A stretch of DNA of 30,482 nt from Candidatus Latescibacterota bacterium (GTDB lineage Bacteria > JAAXHH01 > JACQVL01). Location of the stretch: the NCBI GenBank assembly GCA_016209865.1, contig JACQVL010000269.1, positions 1 through 30,482 of the forward strand. Reading direction: 5' to 3'. Below, in pieces: positions 121 to 29,403 of the stretch (its first letter is position 1; each line of letters opens with the position of its first letter). The notes under the pieces were generated by a model that was given only the letters and a program-made list of their open reading frames with translations, had not been told where the DNA came from and made no database searches. The position numbers were made by a program, and so were the translations under genes.

Positions 121-1083
121 ATGGAAGTGCTCGAAGGATTGCACCGGATAGAAACCCGTCTGGGGAACAGGAAGCTGTTCCAGCATCTCTTCGTCGGGGA
201 TCGGGTCATCGTCATCGACACCGGGGTTCGGGAGACGCCCGAGACCGACCTTTTCCCCTACTTAGAGACGATCGGGAAACGGCCGTCTGATATCGACCTG
301 GTCATCATCAGTCACGCCGACGCCGACCATTTCGGCGGGAACGAGACCATCCGGAAGGCCGCGCCGGCCGCCTGGCTTGCGGCCCATGCGTTCGACGTGC
401 CGTGGGTGTCGAACCCGGATCGCATCGTGGAGGAGAGGTACAACCAGTTCGCCAAGGCCCACGGGATCGCCTACTCGCCGGAGGTGCGCCAGATGCTCCG
501 GGACATGATGGGCGGCCCGGTGCCGATCGACCTCCAGTTGAAGGGCGGCGAGACGATCCTGCTGGACGAATACCGTCCGCTGCACATCCTGTTCCTGCCC
601 GGCCACACCCGTGGCCACATCGGGGTCTACGATCCCGTCCACAAGGCGGCGGTCCTGACCGACGCCATCCTGTGGCGCGGGCTGCAGGACGTGCAGGGCC
701 AGATCGTCATGCCGCCGACGTATTGCTACACGGAAACCTACCGGGCGACGATCCGGTTCGTCGAAAGCCTCGACATCCACTCGTTGTTCCTGTCGCACTA
801 CGCCGTGATCACCGGACGGGAGGATATCGGGGATTTCATCGCCGAGACCCAGCGGTTCGTCGACCGGACGGATGCGGCCATCCTCGATGTCCTAAGGCAA
901 TCCCACGGATGGAAGACCCTTGAAGAGATGATCGACGCGGTCGACCCACTGGTCGGGCCGTTTGGCGATGCACGTCTGGAACTGGCGTACCCCCTGCTCG
1001 GCCATCTGAACGAGTTCGTCCGGCAGGGCCGTCTCGAAGAGAGCGCCAGCGATGAACTGACCTGCTGGCGGTTCCGGGGATAA
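121..1083 (+). CDS. MBL-fold metallo-hydrolase
   Basis: A 320-residue metallo-beta-lactamase-fold hydrolase. The metal motif is HADADH at residues 65-70. The second position of the usual HxHxDH is Asp, a variant also seen in other branches of the superfamily such as ComEC-type domains. Further expected ligands are His162 in GHTRGH (161-166), Asp181 in LTDA and His226 in LSHY, so a dinuclear site looks complete. The C-terminal 80 residues are helical and probably form a small winged-helix-like or substrate-covering segment. The ATG at 121 is preceded by AGGGAGA. No signal peptide is visible, so it is probably cytoplasmic. It is 31 bases upstream of the HD-GYP regulator in the same direction and could share a transcript. 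The substrate is unknown; glyoxalase II-like thioester or lactone hydrolysis is possible. Confidence 0.88.
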   Translation: MEVLEGLHRIETRLGNRKLFQHLFVGDRVIVIDTGVRETPETDLFPYLETIGKRPSDIDLVIISHADADHFGGNETIRKAAPAAWLAAHAFDVPWVSNPDRIVEERYNQFAKAHGIAYSPEVRQMLRDMMGGPVPIDLQLKGGETILLDEYRPLHILFLPGHTRGHIGVYDPVHKAAVLTDAILWRGLQDVQGQIVMPPTYCYTETYRATIRFVESLDIHSLFLSHYAVITGREDIGDFIAETQRFVDRTDAAILDVLRQSHGWKTLEEMIDAVDPLVGPFGDARLELAYPLLGHLNEFVRQGRLEESASDELTCWRFRG

Positions 1084-1114
1084 GGCTTGGCTCATCCAGA
1101 AATGAGATCGTGTG

Positions 1115-2179
1115 ATGTCGTATAGAGTCCTCCTCGTCGACGACGATCTCAATGTGCGCGAGATCATCGGGGGACTGCTCGAGGTATTAGGCTACGAGTA
1201 CGTGACGGCTCCGGACGGGCAAGCTGGCCTCGACCATCTCCGGCAGGAGTCGTTCTCGGTGCTCGTGACCGACATCCACATGCCCCGGATGGACGGCCTG
1301 CAACTCGTCCAGCAGGCGCGACTCCTCGACCCGTTCCTGGGGATCATCGTCATCACTGGGCTCACCGACCTGAGCATGGCCGTGCAGGTGATGAAGGCCG
1401 GGGCGAATGAGTACCTGCTGAAGCCTGTGCAGTTCGACGCGCTCAGCGTCAGCCTCGAAAAATGTCTCGATCATCGGCGACTCCAGCTCGAAATCCAGTC
1501 GTACCAGACCGGCCTGGAAGAGAAGGTGGAACAACGCACCACCCAGCTCCGGAGCACCCTCCATGCCCTTCAGAGCGCGCACGACGCGGTGAAACAGGCA
1601 CACCTCGACCTCATCACCGTCCTGGCGAAAGCGGCAGAGATTAACGATGGGGATACCGGACATCACGTCCGTCGGGTCAGTGCGTATGTCGCCACGATCG
1701 CGGAACACCTCGGCAAGACGACGGACGAGATCGATCAATTAGCCCAGTTCGCCACGATCCACGACATCGGCAAGGTGACGATCCACCCCGACATCCTCCA
1801 GAAGCCCGGTAAACTCAGCTACGAAGAGTTCGACGTGATGAAACAGCACACCATCCGAGGCGCGGAGATCTTGAAGCAGGCCTCTTCGCTGGAGATGGCC
1901 GTCAACATCGCGCTCCATCATCACGAATGGTACGACGGCTCCGGCTATCCTCACGGCCTCTCCGGCGACACTATCCCGTTCGAGGCGCGCCTGACCAGCA
2001 TCGCCGACGTGTTCGACGCCCTCACGATGCGCCGGTGCTACAAAGAGGCGTGGACGATCGACCAGGCCATACATACGATCCGCGCGGAACGAGGTCGCCA
2101 GTTCGACCCGACCCTTGTCGATGCGTTCCTGCAGGTCTATGATAAGATTGTCACCATTCGACAGGCGCTTCCGGAATAA
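1115..2179 (+). CDS. Response regulator with HD-GYP output domain
   Basis: A two-domain signalling protein of about 354 residues. Residues 1-120 form a receiver domain, with an acidic cluster at 9-11, phospho-acceptor Asp53, Thr81 and Lys103 (LLKP). Residues 125-165 look like a coiled-coil linker. Residues 165-350 form an HD-GYP domain with HDIGK, HHE followed by DGSGYP, and ADVFDAL, all intact. The family hydrolyses cyclic di-GMP, so phosphorylation probably controls c-di-GMP breakdown. No cognate kinase is adjacent. The start could be GTG at 1112 or ATG at 1115; ATG gives the usual short N-terminus before the first strand. There is no DNA-binding domain. It shares a direction with the upstream MBL gene and the downstream oxidoreductase cluster, but a repeat and hairpin region separates it from the latter. 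Confidence 0.93.
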   Translation: MSYRVLLVDDDLNVREIIGGLLEVLGYEYVTAPDGQAGLDHLRQESFSVLVTDIHMPRMDGLQLVQQARLLDPFLGIIVITGLTDLSMAVQVMKAGANEYLLKPVQFDALSVSLEKCLDHRRLQLEIQSYQTGLEEKVEQRTTQLRSTLHALQSAHDAVKQAHLDLITVLAKAAEINDGDTGHHVRRVSAYVATIAEHLGKTTDEIDQLAQFATIHDIGKVTIHPDILQKPGKLSYEEFDVMKQHTIRGAEILKQASSLEMAVNIALHHHEWYDGSGYPHGLSGDTIPFEARLTSIADVFDALTMRRCYKEAWTIDQAIHTIRAERGRQFDPTLVDAFLQVYDKIVTIRQALPE

Positions 2180-8420: not shown

Positions 8421-8810
8421 TCATCCCGACGCTTCGTCGAGCATGGCGCTGATGAACAGGAATTTGAGAGGAGTCTCACCGATATTCCGGTGGCCGTGCA
8501 TGACGTTGCGAGGCAGCAAGACACAATCGCCCGGACCGACCTCATACGTCTTGTCGCCCACGGTCACCTCCATCCGGCCTTCCAGAATATAGAACGCCTG
8601 TTCCTGGTTGCTGTGGGCGTGAGCATCGCCCGAACCGCCTCCCGGCGCGTATTCATTCGTGTGGATGACCAGGCGTTCCGAATTCAGCGCCGCTGGCCGT
8701 TGCGTGCTCTGCGCCGACGGTCCCAGAATGACTCGTGAGACGCCGCCGGGATGACCGTGAAATTCCCCGGGCAAGTTGAACCCGTCCCGGACGCAGAATT
8801 CTGTCTTCAT
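8421..8810 (-). CDS. Cupin-domain protein
   Basis: A single-domain cupin of 129 residues. Cupin motif 1 is visible as HAHSNQEQAFYILEG and motif 2 as GPGDCVLLPRNVMHG, giving the expected His, His, Glu and His metal ligands. The chosen start at 8810 has GGGAGG upstream and forms an ATGA overlap with the stop of the molybdenum subunit, a sign of translational coupling. A longer start at 8843 would run into the upstream gene and lacks a ribosome site. The role could be a small dioxygenase, an isomerase or a ligand-binding accessory to the hydroxylase. The first seven codons and ribosome site are duplicated at 13875-13908 (see the pseudogene entry). Confidence 0.88.
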   Translation of the reverse strand: MKTEFCVRDGFNLPGEFHGHPGGVSRVILGPSAQSTQRPAALNSERLVIHTNEYAPGGGSGDAHAHSNQEQAFYILEGRMEVTVGDKTYEVGPGDCVLLPRNVMHGHRNIGETPLKFLFISAMLDEASG

Positions 8811-8823
8811 GCTGAACCTCCCT
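8790..8823. repeat. Copy A of a duplicated gene-start segment
   Basis: The 22 bases at 8790-8811 are identical to 13875-13896, and similarity continues to 8823/13908 with three mismatches, taking in the ribosome site. Both copies contain a stop/start ATGA overlap followed by MKTEFCV on the minus strand. Copy A is the start of the intact cupin gene. Confidence 0.8.
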
Positions 8824-11155
8824 CGCGTTGTTTCGCCTGCCACACCTTAACGATCTTCTCCGGAGTGAGAGGTAAATCCCAGATACGCACACCAATCGCG
8901 TCGTAAACGGCATTGCCGAGCGCAGGAGAGGTTGGCACGACCACGATTTCACCAGCGCCTTTGGCGCCGTAAGGCCCCTGCTGGTGGGGAACCTCGACGA
9001 TGATGGACTGCATGGATTCGCTTCGTGGCATTTCGATGATGGTGGGAATTTTGTACGCCTCCAAGTTGGAGTTGGTCATACGTCCTTTCTCATCGAAGCA
9101 CATCTCCTCGTGCAACGCAATCCCGATGCCCATACACGCGCCGCCGAAATTCTGCATCTCAACCCCCTGCGGGTTCATCGCCTTGCCGACGTCAATGGCG
9201 GAGACGAACTTCAGCACACGGACCTGCCCGGTCTCCACGTTGACCTCGACTTCCGCGGCCTGGGCGCCGTGTCCCATGTACGCCATCGGATGCTCACCCT
9301 GCCCGGTGTTCGGGTCATGCGGGCTGGCGGAGACCTCCCACGTCGCCTTGCCGAAAATCTCGACAGCCGCCGGCCGTTTGCCCGCCAGCATCTCGACCAC
9401 GAAGAGATCGCCGACTTCGATGAACCTGGCCGGGTTCTCCTTGACGAAGATACGCCCACCGGACACGTCCAGTTTGTCAGGGTCAACCCCCAACTGGGGT
9501 GCGGCTTCCTGGCGCATCTGGCGCGTGGCATCGGCGCACGCTAAGCGCGTGGCATTGCCGGTGTGGAAGGTCTGTCGAGAAGAGCCTGCGACGTGGTCAA
9601 AGGGGGTAATGGCGGTGTCTGGTGTGACGAGTTTGACCCGCTCGATCTCAACGCCGAACTCATCGGCCACGATCTGAGTGAGGACGGTATACGCGCCCTG
9701 CCCCAAATCGACCGCGCTCGTTCGGAGTTCATAGGTATTGTCCTCGTGGACCTTCACATCAACGCTGGCGGCGGTTGGGGCGAAGGAATATTTATTGCCC
9801 AGGGCAATGCCTTTGCCTCGGTACCAGGGGTGGCCGGGCTGTTCGCTGGGGGTCCCCCACTCGATGGCCTCGGCGCACTTGGTCAGGCACTCATGCGCGC
9901 TGAAGGCATGGGCCGGCATGGTGATGGCGGTGCGCTCGCCTTCGGTCAACAGGTTTTTCATGCGCAGCGCGACGGGGTCAATGTGGCACGTTCTGGCGAT
10001 GATGTCCATCTGGGTCTCGACGGCCCAGGCCGACTCCGCGCAGCCATAGCCCCGCAGCGCACCGCCAGCGATGCGGTTGGTATACACCCCGTAGGAGTCC
10101 ACCCAGAGCGCGGGGAGGCGGTAGGAGCCGGGGTACAGATGGGTGGAGAAGATCGGTTTCAGAAACCCCTCGCCGCTATACGCCCCACCCCAGAATATCG
10201 AGAGGATCTTCCGTCCGAGCAGCACGCCATCGTGGCTCACCGCGTCTTTGATGGAGAAGATAAACGGCGTGCGTGCTGACGTGGTCGTGAATTCCTCTTC
10301 ACGGGTCAACACGACCTTGACCGGACGGCGCGCTTTTTTAGCGAGCGCGGCCGCGATGGCGCCCTCGTGGACTGTGAGCTTGCCGCCGAACGCACCGCCG
10401 ACAAAGGGCACGATGACGCGGACCTTGGACGGCGGCAGTCCCAACGCGCGGCTCAGGCCGTCACGGGCGATATAGGGCGATTGCCCACCTGCCCAGACGG
10501 TCAGCGTCCCGTCCGGTCCCCACTGCGCGACCGCCGCGCGGGGCTCCATGCAGGTGGTGTGGACGTAGCCGGTCATGTAACGGTTTTCGAGGATGAAGCC
10601 GCCCTCCGCCTCCGCTGTGTGGAACGCCGCGTCGATATCCCCGTGACGAATGCGGTAGGCTTGCCAGAGGTTCGGCGGACGCTTGTCCATCTCGGCGAGT
10701 TCGATCAAGCGTTCGTATTCCTCGTAGTCCTCATGGAGGACGACCGGCGGGTCTAAAGCGATGGCTTCCTCCGGGTCGAACAGGGCTGGCAATTCTTCGT
10801 ATTCGACCGTCATCTGTTCACACGCTTCTCGCGCGATCTCCGGCGTGTCCGCCGCGACCGCCGCGATCGGCTCACCGACGAAGCGTACTGTGTCGTGGGC
10901 GAGCAAATATTCGTCCCGTGTCAGGACGCCCAAACGGACATCGGGCAGGTCGGCGGCGGTGATGACCGCCCGCACCCCGGGCACTTGTTCGGCTTTGCGA
11001 GTATCGATAGATAAGATTTTGGCGTGCGCCAACGGACTGCGCTTGATTTTCCCGAAAATCATACGTGGCAGTACGATATCCCCCGTGTATTGGGCGGCTC
11101 CAGTCACTTTCTCGATGCCATCGATGCGCTTGGGAGAAGTTCCAACGACTTTCAT
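8807..11155 (-). CDS. Molybdenum hydroxylase, molybdopterin-binding large subunit
   Basis: The 782-residue large subunit of a xanthine dehydrogenase/aldehyde oxidase-type enzyme. Visible family marks are an N-terminal a/b-hammerhead start (GTSPKRIDGIEKVTGAAQYT), GGQSPYIARDGLSRALGL (223-240), FVGGAFGGK (251-259), the active-site loop GALRGYGCAES (365-375), and GPYGAKGAGE near the end, with the catalytic Glu at about 736. The loop lacks the AYxCSFR of form I carbon monoxide dehydrogenase, so a hydroxylase of an aldehyde, purine or aryl compound is more likely. It probably binds Mo-molybdopterin cytosine dinucleotide. GAGGAGG precedes ATG 11155. It lies downstream of its 2Fe-2S and FAD subunits, and its stop overlaps the cupin start. 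No maturation genes such as xdhC are present in the window. Confidence 0.95.
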   Translation of the reverse strand: MKVVGTSPKRIDGIEKVTGAAQYTGDIVLPRMIFGKIKRSPLAHAKILSIDTRKAEQVPGVRAVITAADLPDVRLGVLTRDEYLLAHDTVRFVGEPIAAVAADTPEIAREACEQMTVEYEELPALFDPEEAIALDPPVVLHEDYEEYERLIELAEMDKRPPNLWQAYRIRHGDIDAAFHTAEAEGGFILENRYMTGYVHTTCMEPRAAVAQWGPDGTLTVWAGGQSPYIARDGLSRALGLPPSKVRVIVPFVGGAFGGKLTVHEGAIAAALAKKARRPVKVVLTREEEFTTTSARTPFIFSIKDAVSHDGVLLGRKILSIFWGGAYSGEGFLKPIFSTHLYPGSYRLPALWVDSYGVYTNRIAGGALRGYGCAESAWAVETQMDIIARTCHIDPVALRMKNLLTEGERTAITMPAHAFSAHECLTKCAEAIEWGTPSEQPGHPWYRGKGIALGNKYSFAPTAASVDVKVHEDNTYELRTSAVDLGQGAYTVLTQIVADEFGVEIERVKLVTPDTAITPFDHVAGSSRQTFHTGNATRLACADATRQMRQEAAPQLGVDPDKLDVSGGRIFVKENPARFIEVGDLFVVEMLAGKRPAAVEIFGKATWEVSASPHDPNTGQGEHPMAYMGHGAQAAEVEVNVETGQVRVLKFVSAIDVGKAMNPQGVEMQNFGGACMGIGIALHEEMCFDEKGRMTNSNLEAYKIPTIIEMPRSESMQSIIVEVPHQQGPYGAKGAGEIVVVPTSPALGNAVYDAIGVRIWDLPLTPEKIVKVWQAKQREGGSA

Positions 11156-11183
11156 GGGTGATTCACCTCCTCAACCGTCTGCG

Positions 11184-11648
11184 CTACGACTTCCTCGCCA
11201 CGCTCAGAATCGCCCGCGTGGCATGGGTGTACACCCCGCAGCGGCACAGGTTCCCAACGAGCGTGTGACGGATGTCTTCCTCAGTTGGGTTCGGGTTTTC
11301 GTCAAGCAACTTCTTCGCGGTCAGCAACATCCCCGGCGTACAGAACCCGCACTGCACGGCGCCGTGCTCGAGGAACGCGATCTGCAGCGGATGCAGATGA
11401 TCGGGCGTGCCCAGGCCTTCGATCGTCAAGACCGATTTTCCCTGCGCCTGCAGGCCGAGCACCAGACAAGATTTTACCAGCTCTCCATCCAGAAGGACGG
11501 TGCAGGTTCCGCAACGCCCATCCTCACAGCCGCACTTGGTTCCCGTCAGGCCGATGCCATCACGGATGACCTCCATTAAGGTATGGGAGGCCTCAACGAG
11601 CAGGTTGTACTGTTCATCATTGACGGTCAACGACAGGGAGTATTTCAT
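11184..11648 (-). CDS. Molybdenum hydroxylase, [2Fe-2S] subunit
   Basis: A 154-residue small subunit with two iron-sulfur domains. The plant-ferredoxin-like N-terminal cluster is ligated by Cys41, Cys46, Cys49 and Cys61 (CEDGRCGTC and KSC). The helical second domain has Cys100 and Cys103 (CGFC) and Cys135 and Cys137 (CRC). An extra Cys39 precedes the first cluster. It passes electrons from the molybdenum site to FAD. Its ATG at 11648 overlaps the TGA of the FAD subunit (ATGA), and 28 bases with a strong ribosome site separate it from the large subunit. Length and motifs are normal for the family. Confidence 0.96.
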   Translation of the reverse strand: MKYSLSLTVNDEQYNLLVEASHTLMEVIRDGIGLTGTKCGCEDGRCGTCTVLLDGELVKSCLVLGLQAQGKSVLTIEGLGTPDHLHPLQIAFLEHGAVQCGFCTPGMLLTAKKLLDENPNPTEEDIRHTLVGNLCRCGVYTHATRAILSVARKS

Positions 11649-12526
11649 GGCCGCACCTCCAGCGCGCGCGCAACCGCCTCCGTCAGCGCCGCCCGGGTCA
11701 GCACGCCAACGAGGTCCTGTTTGTATGCGCTCGATGCCATCGGCTCACTCCGTGGGGTGAGATGGGTGGCCGCGAGGGTGGCCGCTTCGGTCAGCGATCG
11801 GGTGTCTTCGAGGAGGTTGCGGTGAGCGAGCCGCTGTTCTGCCTCTGTGGCACGGGTTGGGGCGCCCAGGCAGTTGCCGAGCACGATGCGCGGCTCCTGA
11901 CACTGCCCCGTGTCATCAAGGCTGACGAACGCACCGACGCTGACAACGGGAAAATCGCCTGCACGCGGGGAAAACCGGCAGTAGACAGCCGCCGAGCGCC
12001 GGAGGGCAAACCCTGGGATCGTGACCTCCGTCAGTAACTCGCCCGGCTTGGCGGTCGTGGTAAACGGGCCGGCGAGAAACTCATGGAGATTGACCATCCG
12101 TTCCCCTTGCGTTGAAACCAGGGTGACTTCGGCGTTGAGCGTCATCAGCGCGGTGTTGATATCACTGGCCGGATGCGCCCCACAGATGTTGCCGCCGAGC
12201 GTTCCCCGGTTGCGAATGTGTTGATCAGCCACGGTGTGTGCGGCTTCGCTCAGCGCACGCAACGTCGGGTATTCGTTGCCTGCATTGCCTAAGCGGTGGA
12301 GCGTCACCATCGCCCCAATTCTGACGCCCCTCTGTTCAGCCGTGATGCCGTCCAGCCCGGCAACGCTCTGGAGACTGACCAGGCATGATGGCTTGATGAA
12401 ACCTTGCCGCAGCAACAGGGCGATGACTTGACCACCTGCCACGACTCTGGCGCCGTCGCCGTGTTCGGCTAACAGCGTGAGGGCCTCCGCGACGGTCGTC
12501 GGCTCACAGTAGCAACAATTGAGCAT
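11645..12526 (-). CDS. Molybdenum hydroxylase, FAD-binding subunit
   Basis: A 293-residue CoxM-type FAD subunit. The first FAD loop is ARVVAGGQVIALLLRQG, slightly divergent from the usual AGGQSL form, and the second is TLGGNICGAHPASDI. Both contact FAD in this family, and a C-terminal CO_deh_flav_C-type domain follows. The start at 12526 is chosen for its GGAGGAAGG ribosome site; a start at 12571 adds 15 residues that do not fit the family N-terminus. It is the first of the three hydroxylase genes and is translationally coupled to the 2Fe-2S subunit. It probably transfers electrons from the iron-sulfur clusters to an external acceptor. Confidence 0.93.
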   Translation of the reverse strand: MLNCCYCEPTTVAEALTLLAEHGDGARVVAGGQVIALLLRQGFIKPSCLVSLQSVAGLDGITAEQRGVRIGAMVTLHRLGNAGNEYPTLRALSEAAHTVADQHIRNRGTLGGNICGAHPASDINTALMTLNAEVTLVSTQGERMVNLHEFLAGPFTTTAKPGELLTEVTIPGFALRRSAAVYCRFSPRAGDFPVVSVGAFVSLDDTGQCQEPRIVLGNCLGAPTRATEAEQRLAHRNLLEDTRSLTEAATLAATHLTPRSEPMASSAYKQDLVGVLTRAALTEAVARALEVRP

Positions 12527-12595
12527 ACGGTTCCTTCCTCCAATACCGCCAAGGTGCCATTGAGGGAACACCCTTCCATCTCACCTTCTGCCTTG

Positions 12596-17339: not shown

Positions 17340-17407
17340 TTGACACCTTGCGATGGCGCTGTTACTTTATTCCAGTGTCTCTGAGTGAACTGATTGCGGA
17401 CAGTTGA
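17340..17407 (+). promoter_or_regulatory. Promoter and operator-like repeat of the toxin-antitoxin pair
   Basis: TTGACA (17340-17345), 17 bases, TACTTT (17363-17368). Downstream of the predicted start is an inverted repeat, TGAACTG-N8-CAGTTGA, with arms at 17386-17392 and 17401-17407 (one mismatch). A ribbon-helix-helix antitoxin such as BrnA normally represses its own operon at this kind of site. Confidence 0.5.
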
Positions 17408-17418
17408 GTGAGCGTGTT

Positions 17419-17706
17419 ATGCGCATTGACTATATTGTCTGTTCCGAACCCATCGAAGCAAAACTGGCCACAAAACACTCGATCACGGTTCGGGAAGCGC
17501 GTCAGGTCTTGCTCAATCGTCCACAGTTCCGTTTTGCGGAAAAGGGTTATACGAAAGGTGAGAATGTCTATGCCGCGTTCGGACAAACCTTTGGTGGCCG
17601 GTATGTCGTTGTCTACTTTGTCTATAAACCCGATACCGCCACAGCAATCATAATCAGCGCACGCGACATGAGCGCGAAGGAGCAGAGGGCCTATGGCCGC
17701 AAATAA
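17419..17706 (+). CDS. brnT: BrnT-family toxin
   Basis: A 95-residue BrnT (DUF497) family protein. BrnT toxins are small ribonucleases of the RelE-like fold that inhibit translation. The family pattern is visible: KLATKHSITVREARQVLLN, a Phe/Gly-rich middle (FRFAEKGYTKGENVYAAFG), then VVYFVY and IIISARDMSAKEQRAYGR at the end. The ATG at 17419 is chosen; a TTG at 17404 is possible, and neither has a strong ribosome site. Gene order is toxin first, as usual for brnTA, and its 3' end overlaps the antitoxin by 14 bases. No truncation is seen, so the toxin looks functional. Confidence 0.85.
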   Translation: MRIDYIVCSEPIEAKLATKHSITVREARQVLLNRPQFRFAEKGYTKGENVYAAFGQTFGGRYVVVYFVYKPDTATAIIISARDMSAKEQRAYGRK

Positions 17707-17971
17707 ACGCAGCAGCATTTCAAAAGCCGATTCTTTGGAGAAGATGGGAGAGTTTTGGGATACGCATGATTTCACAGAGTATGACGATCCCAACGCGCCG
17801 GATGCGGATTTTACGGTGACCTGTGCGGTTCCGATCGCGTTAGACATTTTCGAAGCGGTTGAACAGTACGCGCATCGGCAAGGGATAGGCGTTGAAACCC
17901 TGATCAATCTCTGGGTGCAAAAGAAACTGGCCGAAGAGGCTCAGACGACAGAGGATCGAGAGTCTGAGTAG
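17693..17971 (+). CDS. brnA: BrnA/CopG-type antitoxin
   Basis: A 92-residue antitoxin. The N-terminal part contains FWDTHDFTEYDD, a typical toxin-wrapping segment of BrnA and related CopG antitoxins. The C-terminal part (about 43-80) has the form of a ribbon-helix-helix: FTVTCAVPIALDIFEAVEQY followed by GVETLINLWVQKKL. It would neutralise BrnT and repress the shared promoter. The start overlaps the toxin gene by 14 bases, so translation is coupled. The acidic tail is normal for an antitoxin. Confidence 0.85.
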   Translation: MAANKRSSISKADSLEKMGEFWDTHDFTEYDDPNAPDADFTVTCAVPIALDIFEAVEQYAHRQGIGVETLINLWVQKKLAEEAQTTEDRESE

Positions 17972-18119: not shown

Positions 18120-19631
18120 ATGGTACGGATCTATTGTTTACCCGATGAACGTGAATTTGAGATCAAGACGGAGGTCACCATTTTGGACGCGGCGCTCCAG
18201 GCCGATACGCCTTTTACCTGTGAATGCGGCGGTGGTGGGGATTGCTGTACATGCCGCGTGCTGGTGCTGGAAGGATTGGAACACTGTACGCCGCGCACCG
18301 AGCAGGAACAGGAACGTGCCACGGCACTGGACTTTCCGCCCAATGTCCGTCTGGCCTGCCAGACACGGGTAACGGGCGATGTGACGGTACGGCGTCTGGT
18401 TATCCAGGACATGAAGCAGGGTACTTCTGATACAAATGAGACGCCAACTCCGCCGATCCTCGAACGGCATCACAGGCATCTGTCGATTCTCAACACCATT
18501 GCCGGGGAATTAAATCGATCTGTTGATCTTCGTCAGGCGCTCCAGACCGTCCTGGCACAGGTGGCGACTTTGCTGGATCTGGAGACCGGCTGGATCTTTC
18601 TGCTCGACCGGGATACCGAAGACTCGTATCTGGCCGCCTTGCAGAACCTGCCGCCAGCCCTTGCAGACAACCCACAGCTTCTTGAGGGCTCGTGTTATTG
18701 TCTCGACAGCTACCGGAACGGCAGTCTGAAAGGCGCGGCCAATGTCAATGTGATCACCTGCAGCCGGCTGCACAAGCTCACGGAGGGGACCGAAGGGTTG
18801 CGTTTTCATGCGAGCATCCCCCTGTATGCCCATGACCGAAAACTTGGTATTCTGAACGTGGCCAGCCGGAACTGGCGGGGACTCTCAGACGATGATCTCC
18901 GGCTGCTCAACACCATCGGAGACCTCCTCAGCATAGCGCTCGAACGGGCTCACCTCTTCGAGCAGAGCATCCATATGGGCGTCCTTGAAGAACGCTACCG
19001 GCTCGCGCGTGAACTGCATGATACGCTGGGTCAAGGACTCGCCGCCATCGTGATGAAACTTGACGCGCTGGATGCTGTGATCGAAGCGAATACAGCGCAT
19101 GAGCAGATCCATGATCAACTCCATTACATCCTGGAGCTGGCACGCGCCAACCTCGAAGAAGGGAGACGCGCCATGCTTGATCTGCGGGCGGCTCCCCTTG
19201 AAGGATACTCGCTGGCCGAGGCGCTCACCCGACTAACGAACACCATTGCCACCGAATATCCCATCCGCGTCTCATGCTCCACCAGAGGCGACAACCACCC
19301 TTTACCTATCCGCATTCAATCAGGACTCTTCCGCATCGCGCAGGAAGCGCTCAACAATATTGTTCAGCATGCGCAGGCCTGTCAGGTCTCAGTACAATTG
19401 GTGACCATGCCAGGCCATGTCCATCTCACCATCAGGGACGATGGCTGTGGCTTCGACCCCTCTATGCTTCCTCCGAATCATTATGGCTTGATCGGCATCC
19501 ACGAACGGGCGAAATTACTTGAAGGTAAAGTAGAAATAGAGAGCCGTCCTGAGCAGGGAACGACCCTTGATGTAAGTATTCCTTTGAGAGCCACGCATGG
19601 CGATGCCCATCCGCATCATGATCGTCGATGA
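18120..19631 (+). CDS. Ferredoxin-GAF-histidine kinase fusion (redox sensor)
   Basis: A 503-residue sensor kinase with an unusual N-terminus. Residues 1-97 form a [2Fe-2S] ferredoxin domain with Cys36, Cys42, Cys45 and Cys80 in the adrenodoxin-like C-x5-C-x2-C...C spacing; Cys34 and Cys43 are extra. Residues about 135-280 are a GAF domain containing GSCYCLD (Cys192, Cys194) and VITCSRL (Cys214), which could bind a metal or sense thiol state. A HisKA_3-type dimerisation domain has phospho-acceptor His300 in [14 protein letters not shown]. The HATPase domain shows Asn413 in ALNNIVQHA and DDGCGFD (441-447). No membrane segment exists, so it is cytoplasmic. The last 35 bases overlap the response regulator gene. 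It probably reads redox state or nitrogen oxides; the signal is not known. Confidence 0.9.
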
Positions 19632-20247
19632 TCATCCCGTCGTGCGGGATGGCCTGCGTGCGATCCTCAACACCCAATCCGACTTCGAGGTCGTGGCCGA
19701 ACTCAAAAATGGGACAGGGGTTGTGAACGCAGCGTCGTCCCTAAAGCCGGACGTGATCCTGCTCGATCTGGAAATGCCTGAAGTTGACGGCATCGAGGCA
19801 TTGCATCGCCTGCGGACAGCCGGTCGCGAAGCACGCGTGATCGTTCTCACCGTGTTCGATACGGATGAACGTATCCTCGCGGCTGTGCAGGCTGGGGCCC
19901 AGGGGTATCTGCTCAAGGGTGCCACACGTGATGAGATTTTTCAGGCAATTCGCGTCGTGCATGCCGGTGGGTCGCTCCTCCAGCCGCTCATTACCTCCAA
20001 ACTCCTCAAGCAGGTCCGTCAGGGCCAATCTGTACCCCAACCGGCCTGTCCGCTTACGCCGCGCGAACGGGACGTGCTGTGGCACGTCGCCAAAGGGTTA
20101 TTGAACAAAGAGATTGCGGACGTGCTGCAGATCAGCGAGCGGACGGTCAAATTTCACATCAGCTCGATCCTGAGCAAGTTAGGCGCGGGCAACCGGACGG
20201 AAGCCGTCGCCATCGCCACGCAGCAGGGCATCCTCCCGAAAAAATAA
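19597..20247 (+). CDS. NarL/FixJ-family response regulator
   Basis: A 216-residue regulator. The receiver domain has Asp11 and Asp12, phospho-acceptor Asp57 in [11 protein letters not shown], Thr85 and Lys107 (LLKG). A LuxR-type helix-turn-helix follows at about 152-212, beginning [15 protein letters not shown], with recognition segment [14 protein letters not shown]. The gene overlaps the kinase by 35 bases, so the pair is a coupled two-component system. ATG 19597 or 19603 may be used. A strong intrinsic terminator lies 57 bases downstream. Target genes are not known; the exporter operon is the closest candidate. Confidence 0.95.
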
Positions 20248-20304: not shown

Positions 20305-20334
20305 GCCCTTTGCCTGAGGCAAAGGGCTTTTTTT
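20305..20334 (+). terminator. Intrinsic terminator after the two-component genes
   Basis: A perfect 10-bp stem, GCCCTTTGCC (20305-20314) and GGCAAAGGGC (20318-20327), with loop TGA, followed by seven T residues (20328-20334). It separates the two-component operon from the exporter operon. Confidence 0.95.
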
Positions 20335-20374: not shown

Positions 20375-20752
20375 ATGAAAAAGCGGCATTCTTTTTTCTT
20401 TCGTGCCCAGCAGCGCCACCCGGTTCTGTTGCATCTGTTCGGTATGATGCTGGTGCAGGTGTGCATCATTTTCCTGCCCGTGGTACTCTATGCCGTGCTC
20501 TTTCAACCGGACATTCCATTCGCCTTCATTATAGCAAGGATTCCATGGGGACCGGTTCTTCTGGTCATCGCGATAGTGGCAGCCTTAAGCCTGCTCAACA
20601 TGCCCTTGGATTCCGGCATCTGGATTCAGGCGGCGCCTGAGCCGGAAGAGGACGATAACGCATCGGCACCTGATGTGCTAATACCAGAGCAAGAGTTTCT
20701 GCATACGGATACCGAAAACGGCGTTGTCAAGATAACTGAGGCGGCGTTTTGA
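20375..20752 (+). CDS. Small two-helix membrane protein
   Basis: A 125-residue protein of unknown family. It has a basic N-terminus (MKKRHSFFFR) and two hydrophobic segments, about 16-43 and 49-77, with a Pro-containing turn between them. A polar, acidic C-terminal tail (88-125) follows. The start ATG 20375 has AAGGAG upstream. The stop overlaps the start of the first ABC gene (TGATG), which indicates tight translational coupling and a shared function, perhaps as an accessory or substrate-handling subunit of the exporter. There is no signal peptidase or lipobox motif. Confidence 0.75.
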   Translation: MKKRHSFFFRAQQRHPVLLHLFGMMLVQVCIIFLPVVLYAVLFQPDIPFAFIIARIPWGPVLLVIAIVAALSLLNMPLDSGIWIQAAPEPEEDDNASAPDVLIPEQEFLHTDTENGVVKITEAAF

Positions 20753-22611
20753 TGTCCTCGAGGTCACAAAGGGATCGCTGCAACCACTGCGGTCGCCTGC
20801 TTCCCGATAACGGCATATGTCCGGCCTGTGTGAGGCGCATTCATACGCTCGATCGGCTCTTCCGTTATCTCAAACCTTATACCGACACCGTAGCCGTTCT
20901 ATCTCTTGCCGCGGTCATGAGCGCCGCACTCAACCTCATCCCGCCCCTGATCACCCGTCGCCTTGTGGATGAGGTGCTGGTCGTCCGGGAAGGGAATATG
21001 ATGTCGTTCGAAGACCGCATGAATCTTCTCATCTGGCTGGTCCTGGCGTTGTTCGGGCTTCGCCTGTTGCAGGAATTGGTAGACTGGGGAAGCCGCTGGA
21101 CAAGAAGCTGGCTCGGGCCTCGCTTGAAGTCCGACGTCCGCAGCCAGCTTTATCGGCACCTTGAGTGGCTCTCCCTGCATGAACACGACAAACGACCGAC
21201 AGGCGATCTCGTGTCGCGTCTCACGCACGATACACAGAAGTTCGAAGAATACCTCACGTCTTTTTTCTCCGGTCTGGTGACCAACTGCCTTATGGTTATC
21301 GGTACCTTCGGATTCCTTCTCTGGCTCAACCGGTCGCTGGCCCTGCTGCTGCTGCTCCCCATACCTCTACTGCTGGTCTGGACACTGCTTTTCAGCCAGT
21401 GTCTCCATGAGGATGCCCATCGCCGGCAGCGCTGCTGGTCGATGCTGACGACGCATCTGCAAGAGACCCTCTCCGGCATCCGCGTCATCAAAGCATTCAG
21501 CCGGGAGCACCGCGTGATACAGCAGTTCCGGCAACAGATCGAATATCTGGTCGATGTGACGGCACGCGGAGAGCGGAATCGGCACATCTCCTCCGAGACG
21601 GCCACCTGGATCATCGGGCTTGGCGGCCTGATCATCTGGTTTTTCGGGGGATTCGATGTTCTCCAGGGTGAACTGACGCTGGGCACACTGGTGGCGTTCT
21701 ACGGGTATATTTCGCTTTTCTACCAGCCGGTAGAGTCGTTCGGACAGTTGCAGAACAAGACGATCGAGGCGGTCGTCAGCGCACAGCGCGTCTTCGAAAT
21801 CCTGGACATTCGTCCGGAACCGTACCATGATCCGAAGGCGCATCCTATGCCCGCCATACAGGGCAGGATCCGATTTCGTGGCGTTACCTTCGGCTATGAG
21901 CCCCATCGTCCGGTGCTCCATGCCCTCGATTTCGACATCGCCCCCGGCGAGATGATCGGTCTGGTCGGCCGATCGGGCGCCGGGAAGAGCACGACTGTGA
22001 GCCTGATCGGCCGTTTCTACGAGGTGGATGAGGGGCATATTGAGATTGACGGGCTCGATATCCGGGAGATCCGTCTGGAAGACCTCAGACGTCAAACCGG
22101 CATTGTACTGCAGGATCCGATCCTGTTCGACGGGACTATCGCGGACAATATCCGATACGGCAAGCCTGATGCAACCTTCGCAGACATCATCCACGCGGCT
22201 GTCACGGCGAATGCTCATGATTTTATCGTCGCCAGGCCGGACGGCTACGATACCCGTGTCGGAGAACATGGCGTCAGGCTCTCCGGCGGTGAGAAGCAGC
22301 GCATCGCCATCGCCCGCGCGCTCCTGCAGGATCCGGCCATCCTTATCCTGGACGAACCCACCTCCTCGGTCGATGTGGAAACCGAGCGACAGATCCAGGA
22401 GGCCGTCGACCGCTTGGTACAGGGACGCACCACAGTCACGATCGCACACCGTCTCTCGACCCTGCGCTACGCGGACCGGCTGATCGTCCTCGACCGCGGA
22501 CGCATCGTGGAAACGGGCACGCATCAGGAACTGCTCGCAAGAGGCGGTGTCTTCTACCATCTTGTACAACTCCAGAAGCAGGTATCCGAAGTCATGGCGC
22601 TCACAGAATAG
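20752..22611 (+). CDS. ABC exporter half-transporter with N-terminal zinc ribbon
   Basis: A 619-residue fused membrane/ATPase subunit. Residues 10-26 hold a zinc-ribbon-like CxxC...CxxC (Cys10, Cys13, Cys23, Cys26). A six-helix exporter membrane domain runs from about 40 to 340. The ATPase domain has Walker A GRSGAGKST (406-414), signature LSGGEKQR (about 510-517), Walker B LILDEPTSSVD and the H-loop IAHRLST, all intact. It probably forms a heterodimer with the next gene. NCBI family names link ABC proteins next to DUF1854 with cyanophycin metabolism, but no cyanophycin gene is present here. Earlier TTG 20749 is less likely than ATG 20752. Confidence 0.92.
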   Translation: MSSRSQRDRCNHCGRLLPDNGICPACVRRIHTLDRLFRYLKPYTDTVAVLSLAAVMSAALNLIPPLITRRLVDEVLVVREGNMMSFEDRMNLLIWLVLALFGLRLLQELVDWGSRWTRSWLGPRLKSDVRSQLYRHLEWLSLHEHDKRPTGDLVSRLTHDTQKFEEYLTSFFSGLVTNCLMVIGTFGFLLWLNRSLALLLLLPIPLLLVWTLLFSQCLHEDAHRRQRCWSMLTTHLQETLSGIRVIKAFSREHRVIQQFRQQIEYLVDVTARGERNRHISSETATWIIGLGGLIIWFFGGFDVLQGELTLGTLVAFYGYISLFYQPVESFGQLQNKTIEAVVSAQRVFEILDIRPEPYHDPKAHPMPAIQGRIRFRGVTFGYEPHRPVLHALDFDIAPGEMIGLVGRSGAGKSTTVSLIGRFYEVDEGHIEIDGLDIREIRLEDLRRQTGIVLQDPILFDGTIADNIRYGKPDATFADIIHAAVTANAHDFIVARPDGYDTRVGEHGVRLSGGEKQRIAIARALLQDPAILILDEPTSSVDVETERQIQEAVDRLVQGRTTVTIAHRLSTLRYADRLIVLDRGRIVETGTHQELLARGGVFYHLVQLQKQVSEVMALTE

Positions 22612-22621
22612 GCGACCCCTT

Positions 22622-24457
22622 ATGCAAGGTTTTATTAAATCCCTCATAAAATCGTTCAAAAGAGGATCGACGCTCCGCCGGCTGGCCGCTTACCTTTTGC
22701 CCTATCGTATGCCTATGATCGGAGTGATTGCAGTGATCGTCGCCCAATCGGTGGTCAAGCTCCTCCCGCCGCTGCTCATGAAATATATCATCGATGACAT
22801 CCTGATACCCCGGTCCAACGCCGGCCTCCTCGTCTGGTGTGTTCTGGGACTGTTGGGTGTCAATATTCTGAACTGGTTCTTCAACATTTTGAATGAATGG
22901 GGGACTGCCTGGCTGGGGCACCGCGCCACGACAGATATTCAGGCGGACCTGTATCAGCATCTGCAAATGCTGCCGCTCAGAACTTATGATAAACAAAAAG
23001 TCGGTGCCCTGATAAGTCGAATCACCGATGACGCCGGGCGTCTGCAAATCTTGTTTTCCGGTTCCGGACCGTACTTCCTGGTCAATGCTGTGATGCTGGC
23101 GGGCATGCTGGCAATTCTGCTTTCCATGAGCTGGGAACTCACCCTGTATGCGATGCTGCCGGCGCCATTGATTATCCTGGCGACGCGTGTATTTCAGTAT
23201 CGCGATCTGTTGCGCCGTCTCTCCATCAACAATGCTCGGTTTAATGCCCATGTGAGCGAAACGCTGGCGGGGCTGCGGCTGGTCAAGACGTGTGCCCAGG
23301 AAGCGCGGGAGGCGGAAAGATTTGACGGGATTAATAATGAAGTGCGGCAGTCGCATACGGCATTCGGACGGATACTTGGCCATTACTTCCAGAGCAGCCA
23401 GTATATGCTGGGCCTCGGCATATTTCTGGTCTGGTACGCCGGTGGAAGGGCGGTGCTAGACCCTGCGGACGGCATGACGCTGGGCGGGTTACTGGCATTT
23501 CTGAGTTACATCGCCATGCTTTATCAACCTCTTAATTGGTTCATAATTTTCCATGGTCAGATCATCGGGGGCATGATGAGCGTGGAACGGGTTTTTGAAC
23601 TTATGGACGAAGCGCCGGAACCGTTCTATCATCCCGATGCCGTCCCGATGCCGCAGATGAAAGGTCATGTGGCATTTCATCATGTTTCGTTCGGTTATGA
23701 CCGGAGCACACCGGTGCTGGAGGATATCACGCTCGACGTCGCGCCTGGAGAGATGATCGGTCTGGTCGGTCGATCGGGCGTGGGAAAGACCACCATGATC
23801 AATCTCATCTGCCGATTTTATGAAGTGGAACGCGGCGCTCTGAAGATCGATGGGATCGATATCCGTGACATCCGGCTGCAAGATCTGCGCCGCCACATCG
23901 GCATCGCACCTCAGGCGTCATTTCTGTTCAACGGGACTATCGCGGACAACATCCGGTTCGGCAAACCAGAGGCTTCGATGGAGGAGGTCATTCAGGCGGC
24001 CGTGGCCGCACATGCCCATGATTTTATCGTTGCCAGAAAGGACGGCTACGACACCCTGATAGGTGAGCAGGGATCGAGACTTTCGGGAGGCGAGAGACAG
24101 CGCATCACCATCGCCCGGGCCATCCTCAGTGATCCCACTATCCTTATTCTCGATGAAGCGACTTCGTCTGTCGATGTGGAGAGCGAGCAGCATATCCAGG
24201 AGGCCATCGCCCGGTTGATTCAAGGCCGTACCACTTTCGCCATCGCGCACCGGCTGTCCACGCTTCGGAGGGCAGACCGTATTGTTGTTCTGGACGATAA
24301 TAGGATTGCTGAAATCGGTACCCATGAAGCGTTGATGGCGCGACAAGGACTCTTCTATCAGATGGTCAGGGCGCAGCAGGAGACCTCGGCGATCGTGGCG
24401 GTACACGGTGGTAAAGACGACCCGGAACGCGAGAAGGAGCACACCTATGACAGATGA
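22622..24457 (+). CDS. ABC exporter half-transporter (second)
   Basis: A 611-residue exporter subunit. The membrane domain spans about 28-320, starting LLPYRMPMIGVIAVIVAQS. The ATPase domain has Walker A GRSGVGKTT (383-391), Q-loop region GIAPQASFLFNG, signature LSGGERQR (about 487-494), LILDEATSSVD and IAHRLST. Both catalytic Glu and His are present, so both sites of a heterodimer could be active. It lacks the N-terminal zinc ribbon of its partner. ATG 22622 is ten bases after the partner's stop; an upstream in-frame TTG would overlap that gene deeply. The two transporters are clearly paralogous, most strongly around the ATPase and the YGYD-type insert, but not a recent tandem copy. Confidence 0.93.
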   Translation: MQGFIKSLIKSFKRGSTLRRLAAYLLPYRMPMIGVIAVIVAQSVVKLLPPLLMKYIIDDILIPRSNAGLLVWCVLGLLGVNILNWFFNILNEWGTAWLGHRATTDIQADLYQHLQMLPLRTYDKQKVGALISRITDDAGRLQILFSGSGPYFLVNAVMLAGMLAILLSMSWELTLYAMLPAPLIILATRVFQYRDLLRRLSINNARFNAHVSETLAGLRLVKTCAQEAREAERFDGINNEVRQSHTAFGRILGHYFQSSQYMLGLGIFLVWYAGGRAVLDPADGMTLGGLLAFLSYIAMLYQPLNWFIIFHGQIIGGMMSVERVFELMDEAPEPFYHPDAVPMPQMKGHVAFHHVSFGYDRSTPVLEDITLDVAPGEMIGLVGRSGVGKTTMINLICRFYEVERGALKIDGIDIRDIRLQDLRRHIGIAPQASFLFNGTIADNIRFGKPEASMEEVIQAAVAAHAHDFIVARKDGYDTLIGEQGSRLSGGERQRITIARAILSDPTILILDEATSSVDVESEQHIQEAIARLIQGRTTFAIAHRLSTLRRADRIVVLDDNRIAEIGTHEALMARQGLFYQMVRAQQETSAIVAVHGGKDDPEREKEHTYDR

Positions 24458-24538: not shown

Positions 24539-25021
24539 ATGATCTTCCTCAAACCTGAAACGCTTCGACTTGACAGAACGCCATCCGGGGAAATACGAAT
24601 GAGCCTCGACGGCGAGCCAACTTTTACCCCGGTTACGATTATGCAGGCGGCCCCGCTATCCTATCCGGGACAATACATCTGCTTCCTCGATGCCCTTGAA
24701 AGGGTGGTCGGAATAATCAAAGATACCGACAAACTCGATCCTTCCGATCGGCAGACCGTTCACGAAGAACTTGTCCAGCGCTATCAAACTACGGCGATCG
24801 AGCGGATTTTCTCATTGAAGCATGAAAACAGGATGCTTTACTGGGACATCCTGACCGATCAGGGAAGAGAGGAGATACTGTTGGAGGATGAAGAAGATAA
24901 TATCCGCCGGTTGGATACAGGTCGTGTACTTTTGACCGATGTGGATGGCAAACGATTCGAGATCCCCGATCCGGAGAAGCTTGATACAGGGAGTAGAAAG
25001 GCGCTGAGAAAGGTTCTATAG
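24539..25021 (+). CDS. DUF1854-family protein
   Basis: A 160-residue soluble protein. It opens FLKPETLRLDRTPSGEIRM and contains a strand-rich middle with VVGIIKDTDKLDP and the helical segment VHEELVQRYQTTAIERIFS, as in DUF1854. The family usually sits beside or is fused to ABC exporters of this type, and NCBI labels some of them cyanophycin metabolism-associated. GAGGA precedes ATG 24539. It lies 81 bases after the second ABC gene and is probably the last gene of the exporter operon. It faces the PepSY gene convergently across a 99-base gap in which I see no convincing terminator. Its biochemical role is unknown. Confidence 0.85.
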   Translation: MIFLKPETLRLDRTPSGEIRMSLDGEPTFTPVTIMQAAPLSYPGQYICFLDALERVVGIIKDTDKLDPSDRQTVHEELVQRYQTTAIERIFSLKHENRMLYWDILTDQGREEILLEDEEDNIRRLDTGRVLLTDVDGKRFEIPDPEKLDTGSRKALRKVL

Positions 25022-27027: not shown

Positions 27028-28944
27028 TCACCGTTGCGTCGGCCACTTGAAGATCTGAGGCAGTTCTTCCCGCTCTTTCCTCTCGGCATTCATCAGCTCA
27101 CTCAGCGGCACCCCCGCTTCTTTCAGCGGCTGACCGGTGAGTTCGATGTAGAACGGGTCCAGGCGGTCCTGCATAAGAGTGGCAGCGTCCAGGTAGCACT
27201 GCAGCGCTTCGTCAGCCAACTGCTCCGCGTCCTGGTGGTCCTGCGGGCGATGCGAGCGGGCATACACGAGCGCCGCGATGGCCGCCATCACCTTCCGCTC
27301 GTAATAGTGAGCGAGCAACTGATACGCGTGCATAATATCGCGCGTGCGGATCGCCGCTTCCCGATTCTTGGTGACGCTTTTCAGCCCTTCTTCGGCTTCG
27401 TGCAAGCACTCGACGCCCATCGCGCGCACCGTCCGCATATGGACCGGCGGGATGACGTCGAAGACACTCCCCCCTTCACTGCCCCATAGTGCCTCTTGAT
27501 AGTAGGGCGGTCGATCAGGATCTGAGCCATCGTTGTCACGGAACCGCTCGGGATCCAGAGCGACGAACTCCGCGTAGTGCGTCACCGGGACCAGGTGACT
27601 GCCCCGGGCCGGGGAGGCTGTGTAGCCCCAGGGATACTCTCCGGTGAAGAACGCGTACGGCATGCGCAGCTCTCTGCGCAGCACATCGCCTCCGGAATAC
27701 ACCAGGGCGTCGGTTTCGGGGATGATGCGAGTGGAAAGGTCGTAGGCTTTGAGAAAATGCCAAGCCGCCGTCCGGTCGCCGAATTGCTGCTCCAGCACGG
27801 CCAGCCACGGCTCTTCTGAGTACGGTTCGGAATGGCTCGCATAATGGGCCAATGCCTTTCGGAAAAGCGGTCCCAGCAACGTGCCCGAGATATGGCGTTC
27901 CCAGTAGATGAACCCGGCGAAGCCCTCGACCTTCTTCATCTCAGCGACGATCTCGTAGGCGAACCGGGGCGAGTTGAAGGGGAAGTAGAGCTGGTTGGCG
28001 GGATAGAGGTCCACGACGGTCGGCAGGCCGGTCTTCTCGCTCCATTCGACGACGCCCGGATAGGGTTTCGCGTCCGTGATATTTTCCGAGTTATAGCCGT
28101 GGAAGCCGAGCCAGGTGTTGTCGTACACGTCCTGGGGAACGACATTCTTCACATACCCTTCCATCGGCGTTTGCCATTGCAGGGCGATGAACAAGGGCTT
28201 CCGGCCAGAACGCTTCAGACCGGGAACGATCGCTTCTCGGAACAACAGGCTTCGGTCGCCCGGCAGGGGTTCTCCCAGAAACCCGTAGAAGCCATCCAGG
28301 TCGGGATAGAGTTGCGGGAGCTCCGCGTAGACCGCTTCCGTGTACGCGCGCGTGAGTTCGGTACGGACGCCGCAGTGGACTGTCGTGCCGCCGCGCCAAA
28401 AGTCCGGGTACCCGGTGTTGTGCCACGAGGACACGGTTGGGGAGACCGGCATCGGCTGATCCAGGCCGTGCGCTTTCCCGAACGCCTGGGTAAAGAAGAG
28501 ATGTTGCGTGAGCAGAACGTTCTTCAGACCGAGTGCTTTGGCTCTGTGGAAGAGCCACTCCATCTGCGCAATCCGGCGCTCCGTCTCCTCCGGGGTGAGC
28601 TCCCGGGCCTCGGGGAACGCCGCATGTCGGAGGAGGACGTGTTGGCCGTTGGTGAGCTCATTGGGGCCGTACCAGATCACCGCGTTGTAGCCTTCACCGC
28701 TCCATAACACGAGCGTGTCGTTCCAATATTTTTTGTTCCAGAATGTTGGATCCTCCGGGTTCGGATACCCCGCCAGCATCGCCCGGAAGGGGAGCGTCCG
28801 TGTCGGCCCAGATACACCGATAGACTGCAGATCACCCTGAATCGCCATGAGTCTCTCTCCGGATGTCACATGCGGATGCTGGGTGCAGGAAACCAGGGTC
28901 AAGGCAACGACGAAGGCCATGCATGGCTCGACCTGTTTAAGCAA
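27028..28944 (-). CDS. Large lipoprotein, probable glycoside-hydrolase-like TIM barrel
   Basis: A 638-residue secreted lipoprotein if it starts at TTG 28944, which follows a near-perfect AAAGGAGG. The signal peptide is short and hydrophobic and ends in the lipobox LVSC with Cys20 as the lipidated residue. The mature part begins like a barrel (NAVIWYGPNELTNGQH) and contains LDGFYGFLGEPLPGDRS, with a Glu at a typical strand-4 end position, LGFHGYNSENIT, and FAGFIYWERHISG with another Glu. The C-terminal 150 residues are helical. The overall look is that of alpha-glucuronidase-like or clan A glycosidases, but I do not recognise a named family. The frame is open up to 29142, and an ATG at 29094 is an alternative start, but the extra residues do not form a signal peptide. 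Confidence 0.65.
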   Translation of the reverse strand: MLKQVEPCMAFVVALTLVSCTQHPHVTSGERLMAIQGDLQSIGVSGPTRTLPFRAMLAGYPNPEDPTFWNKKYWNDTLVLWSGEGYNAVIWYGPNELTNGQHVLLRHAAFPEARELTPEETERRIAQMEWLFHRAKALGLKNVLLTQHLFFTQAFGKAHGLDQPMPVSPTVSSWHNTGYPDFWRGGTTVHCGVRTELTRAYTEAVYAELPQLYPDLDGFYGFLGEPLPGDRSLLFREAIVPGLKRSGRKPLFIALQWQTPMEGYVKNVVPQDVYDNTWLGFHGYNSENITDAKPYPGVVEWSEKTGLPTVVDLYPANQLYFPFNSPRFAYEIVAEMKKVEGFAGFIYWERHISGTLLGPLFRKALAHYASHSEPYSEEPWLAVLEQQFGDRTAAWHFLKAYDLSTRIIPETDALVYSGGDVLRRELRMPYAFFTGEYPWGYTASPARGSHLVPVTHYAEFVALDPERFRDNDGSDPDRPPYYQEALWGSEGGSVFDVIPPVHMRTVRAMGVECLHEAEEGLKSVTKNREAAIRTRDIMHAYQLLAHYYERKVMAAIAALVYARSHRPQDHQDAEQLADEALQCYLDAATLMQDRLDPFYIELTGQPLKEAGVPLSELMNAERKEREELPQIFKWPTQR

Positions 28945-29034
28945 CCCATCCTCCTTTGTCTGGCGGGCTAACGTCTGAGGCCCCGCTGTTCCCGCACGGC
29001 TTAGGCGATCAGCAACCCCACGCCTCCCCCAAGG

Positions 29035-29094
29035 CAAAAGCGAGATTTTGGGATCCGCCAGCCGCCAAAACCCAACCCAGAACTTCAGCCTCAT
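29035..29094 (-). pseudogene. Possible N-terminal fragment of a prenyltransferase gene
   Basis: GAGGAGG and ATG 29094 begin MRLKFWVGFWRLADPKISL, which resembles the opening of UbiA-type prenyltransferases (RLADPKISLAS...) as I recall them. After about 19 residues the sequence changes to low-hydrophobicity residues and runs in frame into the lipoprotein gene. It is probably a gene start cut off by deletion. The recognition is from memory and the match is short. Confidence 0.3.
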
Positions 29095-29134
29095 GGGCCT
29101 CCTCGGTCGTGACAGGCATGACCGCCGTCGTGCT

Positions 29135-29403
29135 TCAAGCACCCCGCCGTCGGACCCGAGGTGGGACGTGGGGAAAGGGGCGCTCTTGAGTCAACAGTTC
29201 CAGATTCTCGGTCACCCGCTGGCTATGCCGGGCACCATAGAGGAGTTCTGCTTGCACAAGAGCACAGAGGCGGATTGCGGTAGGGGTCTGGTGAGCCAGG
29301 AGCTGCGTGAGCTCGGGAGCTGTCCCATTGCGCAGCGCGCGGCGGCTCGTTGGCGGAGTTGCTCCGCAATCGGCTCCGGCACCTCGACCTGAAGTTGGGG
29401 CAT
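29135..29403 (-). pseudogene. vapBC toxin-antitoxin relic
   Basis: ATG 29403, with a strong CAGGAGG site, starts an antitoxin-like frame, MPQLQVEVPEPIAEQLRQRAA. From about 29340 the DNA encodes, in another frame, LRNGTAPELTQLLAHQTP, then AIRLCALVQAELLYGARHSQ and VTENLELL, a central part of VapC PIN-domain toxins. The first PIN Asp and the C-terminal half are missing. A deletion has therefore joined vapB to the middle of vapC with a frameshift. The antitoxin frame still reads 63 codons to 29212, so a truncated antitoxin-like peptide could be made. Confidence 0.65.

Follow-up and report, generated by a model that had tools for sequence, protein, structure and literature searches.

By what route a redox signal reaches iron-sulfur kinases is not well established. 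AirS is said to react with oxygen or peroxide, and the cyclase CyaC, whose input is related, responds to quinones. In the window (by which we mean the whole stretch of DNA that was analysed, 30,482 nucleotides from a draft genome of Candidatus Latescibacterota), a gene for a histidine kinase that begins with a ferredoxin-type domain raises the question of what such a domain might contribute to a kinase, and of how the two came to be joined.

Domains of the kinase and its response regulator

The kinase gene and the sequence that follows it contain these features:

18120..19631 (+), Fer2-GAF-HisKA_3-HATPase_c sensor histidine kinase, 503 aa (open reading frame and Pfam)
18141..18374 (+), Fer2 (PF00111), aa 8-85 (Pfam E 1.5e-10; 41.3 bits, cut-off 21)
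18225-18227, 18243-18245, 18252-18254 and 18357-18359 (+), predicted [2Fe-2S] ligands Cys36, Cys42, Cys45 and Cys80, respectively (alignment)
18522..18944 (+), GAF domain, aa 135-275 (Pfam GAF_2 E 9.4e-15)
18990..19193 (+), HisKA_3 dimerisation/phosphoacceptor domain, aa 291-358 (Pfam E 1.5e-14)
19017-19019 (+), predicted phospho-His300 (invariant in a 38-sequence alignment)
19320..19589 (+), HATPase_c, aa 401-490 (Pfam E 1e-13; matches the ATPase domains of VraS and DesK)
19597..20247 (+), NarL/LuxR-type response regulator, 216 aa (Pfam Response_reg E 3e-29, GerE 2.6e-21)
20305..20334 (+), terminator-like hairpin and T run, 3' of the regulator (read from the sequence)

The reading frame at 18120-19631 (+) is exact in coordinates and frame, starts with ATG and has no internal stops. 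The original prediction, that a ferredoxin-type domain sits on a soluble GAF/HisKA_3 kinase, was borne out by Pfam (Fer2 8-85, GAF_2 135-275, HisKA_3 291-358, HATPase_c 401-490), by alignment and by the structure model. In particular, HisKA_3 and HATPase_c domains together with an H-box histidine make this a DesK/NarX-like kinase, and a highest 19-residue Kyte-Doolittle mean of 1.52 agrees with the proposed lack of a membrane segment. The Pfam search of the kinase returned no PAS match, which rules out an NreB-like PAS sensor (GAF and Fer2 are present instead), and no Guanylate_cyc match of the kind that would mark a class III cyclase domain.

The four cysteines named in the original prediction (Cys36, 42, 45 and 80) fall column for column on those of ferredoxins of solved structure, such as 1i7h, and are invariant among the nearest Fer2 relatives. 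Moreover, pLDDT is mostly 84-97 over the Fer2 part of the structure model. Note that the bare cysteine spacing arises in about 1% of shuffles of the Cys-rich 97-aa stretch and would by itself be weak evidence; it is the profile match that places the Fer2 domain beyond chance. The domain is thus predicted to bind a [2Fe-2S] cluster.

The regulator gene overlaps the 3' end of the kinase gene by 35 bases, which, together with the terminator-like hairpin after the regulator, suggests that the two genes form a two-gene operon. A similar regulator lies directly downstream of most homologous kinases, and the GAF-HisKA_3-HATPase architecture with an adjoining response regulator is that of an AirS-type system. 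Beyond the regulator, the homologue loci share no gene neighbourhood from which the signal could be read. On the sequence evidence, the protein is best explained as a soluble, cytoplasmic, redox-sensing two-component kinase with a DNA-binding partner. (Elsewhere in the window, a BrnT-like toxin gene at 17404-17706 (+) (Pfam E 5e-11) lies directly upstream of the kinase gene, with a possible BrnA-like antitoxin frame at about 17700-17970 (+) just 3' of the toxin gene. Tandem ABC half-transporters are encoded at 20749-22611 and 22547-24457 (+), the first of which was covered by the Pfam scan, and are followed by a DUF1854 protein at 24539-25021 (+). On the minus strand are a molybdenum hydroxylase set at 8807-12571, with large, small [2Fe-2S] and FAD subunits resembling CO/xanthine dehydrogenases, and a 704-aa open frame at 27028-29142 with no Pfam matches.)

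A second candidate cluster site in the GAF domain

The original prediction was right about the ferredoxin site and incomplete as an account of the protein, having overlooked a set of residues in the GAF domain:

18693..18809 (+), candidate cluster site: Cys192 18693-18695, Cys194 18699-18701, Cys214 18759-18761, His230 18807-18809 (conservation)

These residues, which form the pattern Cys192-X-Cys194-X19-Cys214 plus His230, are invariant across 38 aligned sequences that span Bacilli AirS-like proteins (six in number) to Chloroflexota kinases at 31-60% identity. The set is also all-or-none: among 60 homologues, 46 have all four residues, 14 lack the set, and none is mixed. The Bacilli homologues (31-33% identical to the window kinase) carry exactly C-X7-C-X-C-X17-C, which is the published [2Fe-2S] cluster motif of Staphylococcus aureus AirS (PMC4601167). 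The candidate site in the window kinase corresponds to the C-X-C-X17-C part of this motif. AirS's first cysteine is absent from the window kinase, in which positions 184-185 are Asn-Pro, and likewise from its Chloroflexota relatives; with three of the four cysteines, spaced C-X-C-X19-C, we call the window kinase AirS-like rather than AirS. His230, which is conserved both in the Bacilli proteins and in the group formed by the window kinase and related Chloroflexota kinases, is our guess for a candidate fourth ligand.

The full-length structure model has low confidence in the GAF domain and the linker. In the model of the GAF domain pLDDT is mostly 80-95, with GAF fold matches at Z of about 15-18 that include fRMsr structures. 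(A third group of GAF kinases, L220, L221 and L222, from another bacterial family, has a CxC...C...H motif and also lacks the first AirS cysteine.)

Origins of the two halves and spread of the fusion

The closest kinases are GAF-HisKA_3 proteins at 52-60% identity, mostly from Chloroflexota and from a second phylum represented by 64 genomes, and they have the same GAF motif and, in most cases, the regulator too. In the tree, the window kinase is one of nine members of a group that it forms with kinases of that second phylum (support 99/99), and no full-length orthologue turned up in the 15 further genomes of its own phylum. Because its relatives lie elsewhere and the phylum's other genomes lack an orthologue, the kinase core probably came from outside the phylum. 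None of the homologues surveyed has Fer2: no match starts before about residue 70, and in the loci that could be inspected no Fer2 was found in the same frame as the homologous kinases. Since no examined homologue has Fer2, we infer that the domain was gained on the lineage leading to the window gene.

How widely the fusion occurs was a question raised with the original prediction, and the survey gave a narrow answer: Fer2-GAF-HisKA_3 was found once, in one draft genome. The same fusion was absent from the 66 matching genomes among 400 Chloroflexota, from the 19 matching genomes among the 64 of the second phylum, and from the 10 matching genomes (the window's own aside) among 384 sampled across the domain. 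It was likewise absent from 80 retained homologue loci, from viral contigs and from the plasmid matches listed, among which one low-identity match covers 80% of the query. (A split-gene version, with a stand-alone ferredoxin gene beside the kinase gene, was also considered and rejected, there being no strong Fer2 match in the relatives' loci.)

The ferredoxin half most closely matches ferredoxin domains that stand at the N-terminus of class III cyclases (L107, at 52% identity, L152 and L153) and of a HisKA-type kinase from a Calditrichota genome (L108, at 46% identity). Thus, the nearest Fer2 domains are fused to signalling outputs, either class III cyclases or another kinase. In a tree built from a short alignment, the window Fer2 groups with those cyclases and L108 (moderate support of 97/56, with an inner group at 91/83), apart from DUF4445/ASKHA proteins and most stand-alone ferredoxins. 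The literature describes class III cyclases in which a ferredoxin follows a diheme-type membrane anchor (PMC4821796), and quinone oxidation activates CyaC of Sinorhizobium meliloti, which contains a [2Fe-2S] cluster (PMC10463352). Given the tree grouping and the example of CyaC, the window ferredoxin appears to belong to a subfamily that already serves as a redox input to signalling enzymes. L108 (133-1788 (-), Fer2-HisKA-HATPase) is apparently a separate fusion; counting it and the window kinase, histidine kinases appear to have acquired a cyclase-type ferredoxin domain on two or more occasions. (The Calditrichota genome that encodes L108 also encodes a Fer2-free AirS-like kinase, L051. The Chloroflexota cyclase L153, at 433-1800 (-), has an N-terminal Fer2 and a C-terminal Rieske [2Fe-2S] domain, and thus two predicted clusters.)

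Neither half of the window kinase is of a new kind; their combination turned up once in the genomes searched and in no open-access paper searched, and we found no papers in the open-access literature on a Fer2 histidine kinase. The survey also uncovered many AirS-like kinases, from Chloroflexota and other phyla, whose GAF domains have a Cys3/His site; they make up a large family of which we found no description in that literature.

A possible two-cluster redox kinase and its relation to known systems

The reading that we favour, by a modest measure, is that an AirS-like Fe-S GAF kinase has gained a CyaC-type ferredoxin input to become a two-cluster redox kinase. The GAF domain would hold an Fe-S cluster through Cys192, Cys194, Cys214 and probably His230, and the N-terminal CyaC-type [2Fe-2S] ferredoxin (Cys36, 42, 45 and 80) would most likely exchange electrons with a cellular donor or partner. 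The reduction state of the ferredoxin might then pass to the GAF cluster or act by way of the linker, and the redox state would set autophosphorylation of His300 and, in turn, transfer of the phosphoryl group to the regulator, whose gene comes next. With its cluster oxidised, AirS is reported to have full activity, and with the cluster reduced, weak activity (PMC8774646). Because AirS is active when oxidised and CyaC is active after oxidation, our default guess, by analogy, is that oxidation would switch the window kinase on. More tentatively, the attached ferredoxin could wire electrons from a reductase or ferredoxin pool into an AirS-type GAF cluster (three cysteines and one histidine), and might thereby turn a sensor of the oxygen/peroxide type into a reader of cellular reducing power. 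If true, the existence in nature of an Fe-S GAF kinase with a ferredoxin attached would mean that an electron carrier can be a direct kinase input, and in one soluble 503-aa protein both sites would be open to titration and mutation.

We entertained three other explanations. The ferredoxin alone might bind a cluster and sense redox, much as in the original prediction, with the GAF cysteines binding another metal or acting as a thiol/disulfide switch. The GAF domain does have three cysteines against the four of AirS, GAF proteins with redox-active thiols are known, and fRMsr structures are among its fold matches; but the Cys3/His set is invariant and all-or-none, including in AirS-like kinases with the published cluster motif, and we regard this explanation as unlikely. 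We think it somewhat less likely still that sensing falls to a GAF cluster and that the ferredoxin, whether passive or serving for docking (making contact, for example, with Fe-S assembly or a reductase), exerts no control over the kinase. Such an explanation would fit with the fact that all surveyed homologues do without Fer2, yet the ferredoxin has retained all four ligands, and what appears to be the same Fer2 subfamily has repeatedly been attached to signalling outputs.

An assembly or binning artefact is what one might suspect of a fusion seen in a single fragmented genome (356 contigs, 83% complete), with no second example and no orthologue in 15 relatives of the same phylum. Against this, the protein is encoded by one open frame, the join coincides with the point where the homologues usually begin and has a plausible linker, and third-position GC is similar on either side of it (0.62 and 0.68). 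Moreover, the genome yielded no further Fer2 of this subfamily, and its own cyclases lack a Fer2 motif in the stretches read. An artefact thus strikes us as highly improbable.

Among known systems, AirSR (YhcSR) of S. aureus shares with the window pair the GAF-HisKA_3-HATPase architecture, the adjacent NarL/LuxR-type regulator, and the C-X-C...C and conserved histidine of the GAF domain. Unlike AirS, the window kinase has an additional N-terminal Fer2, lacks the first cysteine, and has X19 rather than X17 before the last one. The chloroplast sensor kinase (CSK/Hik2) has a [3Fe-4S] GAF domain, a conserved GAF Cys19 and a Hik2-type kinase core (PMC6949291). With CyaC and other Fer2 class III adenylate cyclases the window kinase has in common an N-terminal Fer2, apparently of the same subfamily, placed before a signalling output as a probable redox input; its own output, in contrast, is a histidine kinase rather than a cyclase, it has an extra GAF domain, and, having no membrane segment, it is missing the six-helix diheme membrane anchor. 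The Chloroflexota C-X-C-X19-C kinases (for example L028, L030 and L032) have a core that is 52-60% identical, the same GAF motif and usually the same regulator, whereas Fer2 is present in none of those examined. L108 likewise carries Fer2, apparently of the same subfamily, on a histidine kinase, but its kinase class is different (HisKA, PF00512) and it has no recognised GAF cysteine motif.

NreB is a soluble Fe-S kinase with a [4Fe-4S] cluster in a PAS domain and no Fer2, whereas the window kinase has Fer2 and GAF domains. The original prediction presented the protein as a design different from that of NreB, which holds with respect to the PAS [4Fe-4S] module; the core is nonetheless related to AirS, itself a known [2Fe-2S] kinase. 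Similarly, the ferredoxin proposed there as a sensor or input module is a real domain, although ferredoxin redox input was already known from CyaC-type cyclases. In the window kinase, sensing may be done by a GAF cluster, with the ferredoxin as a further input.
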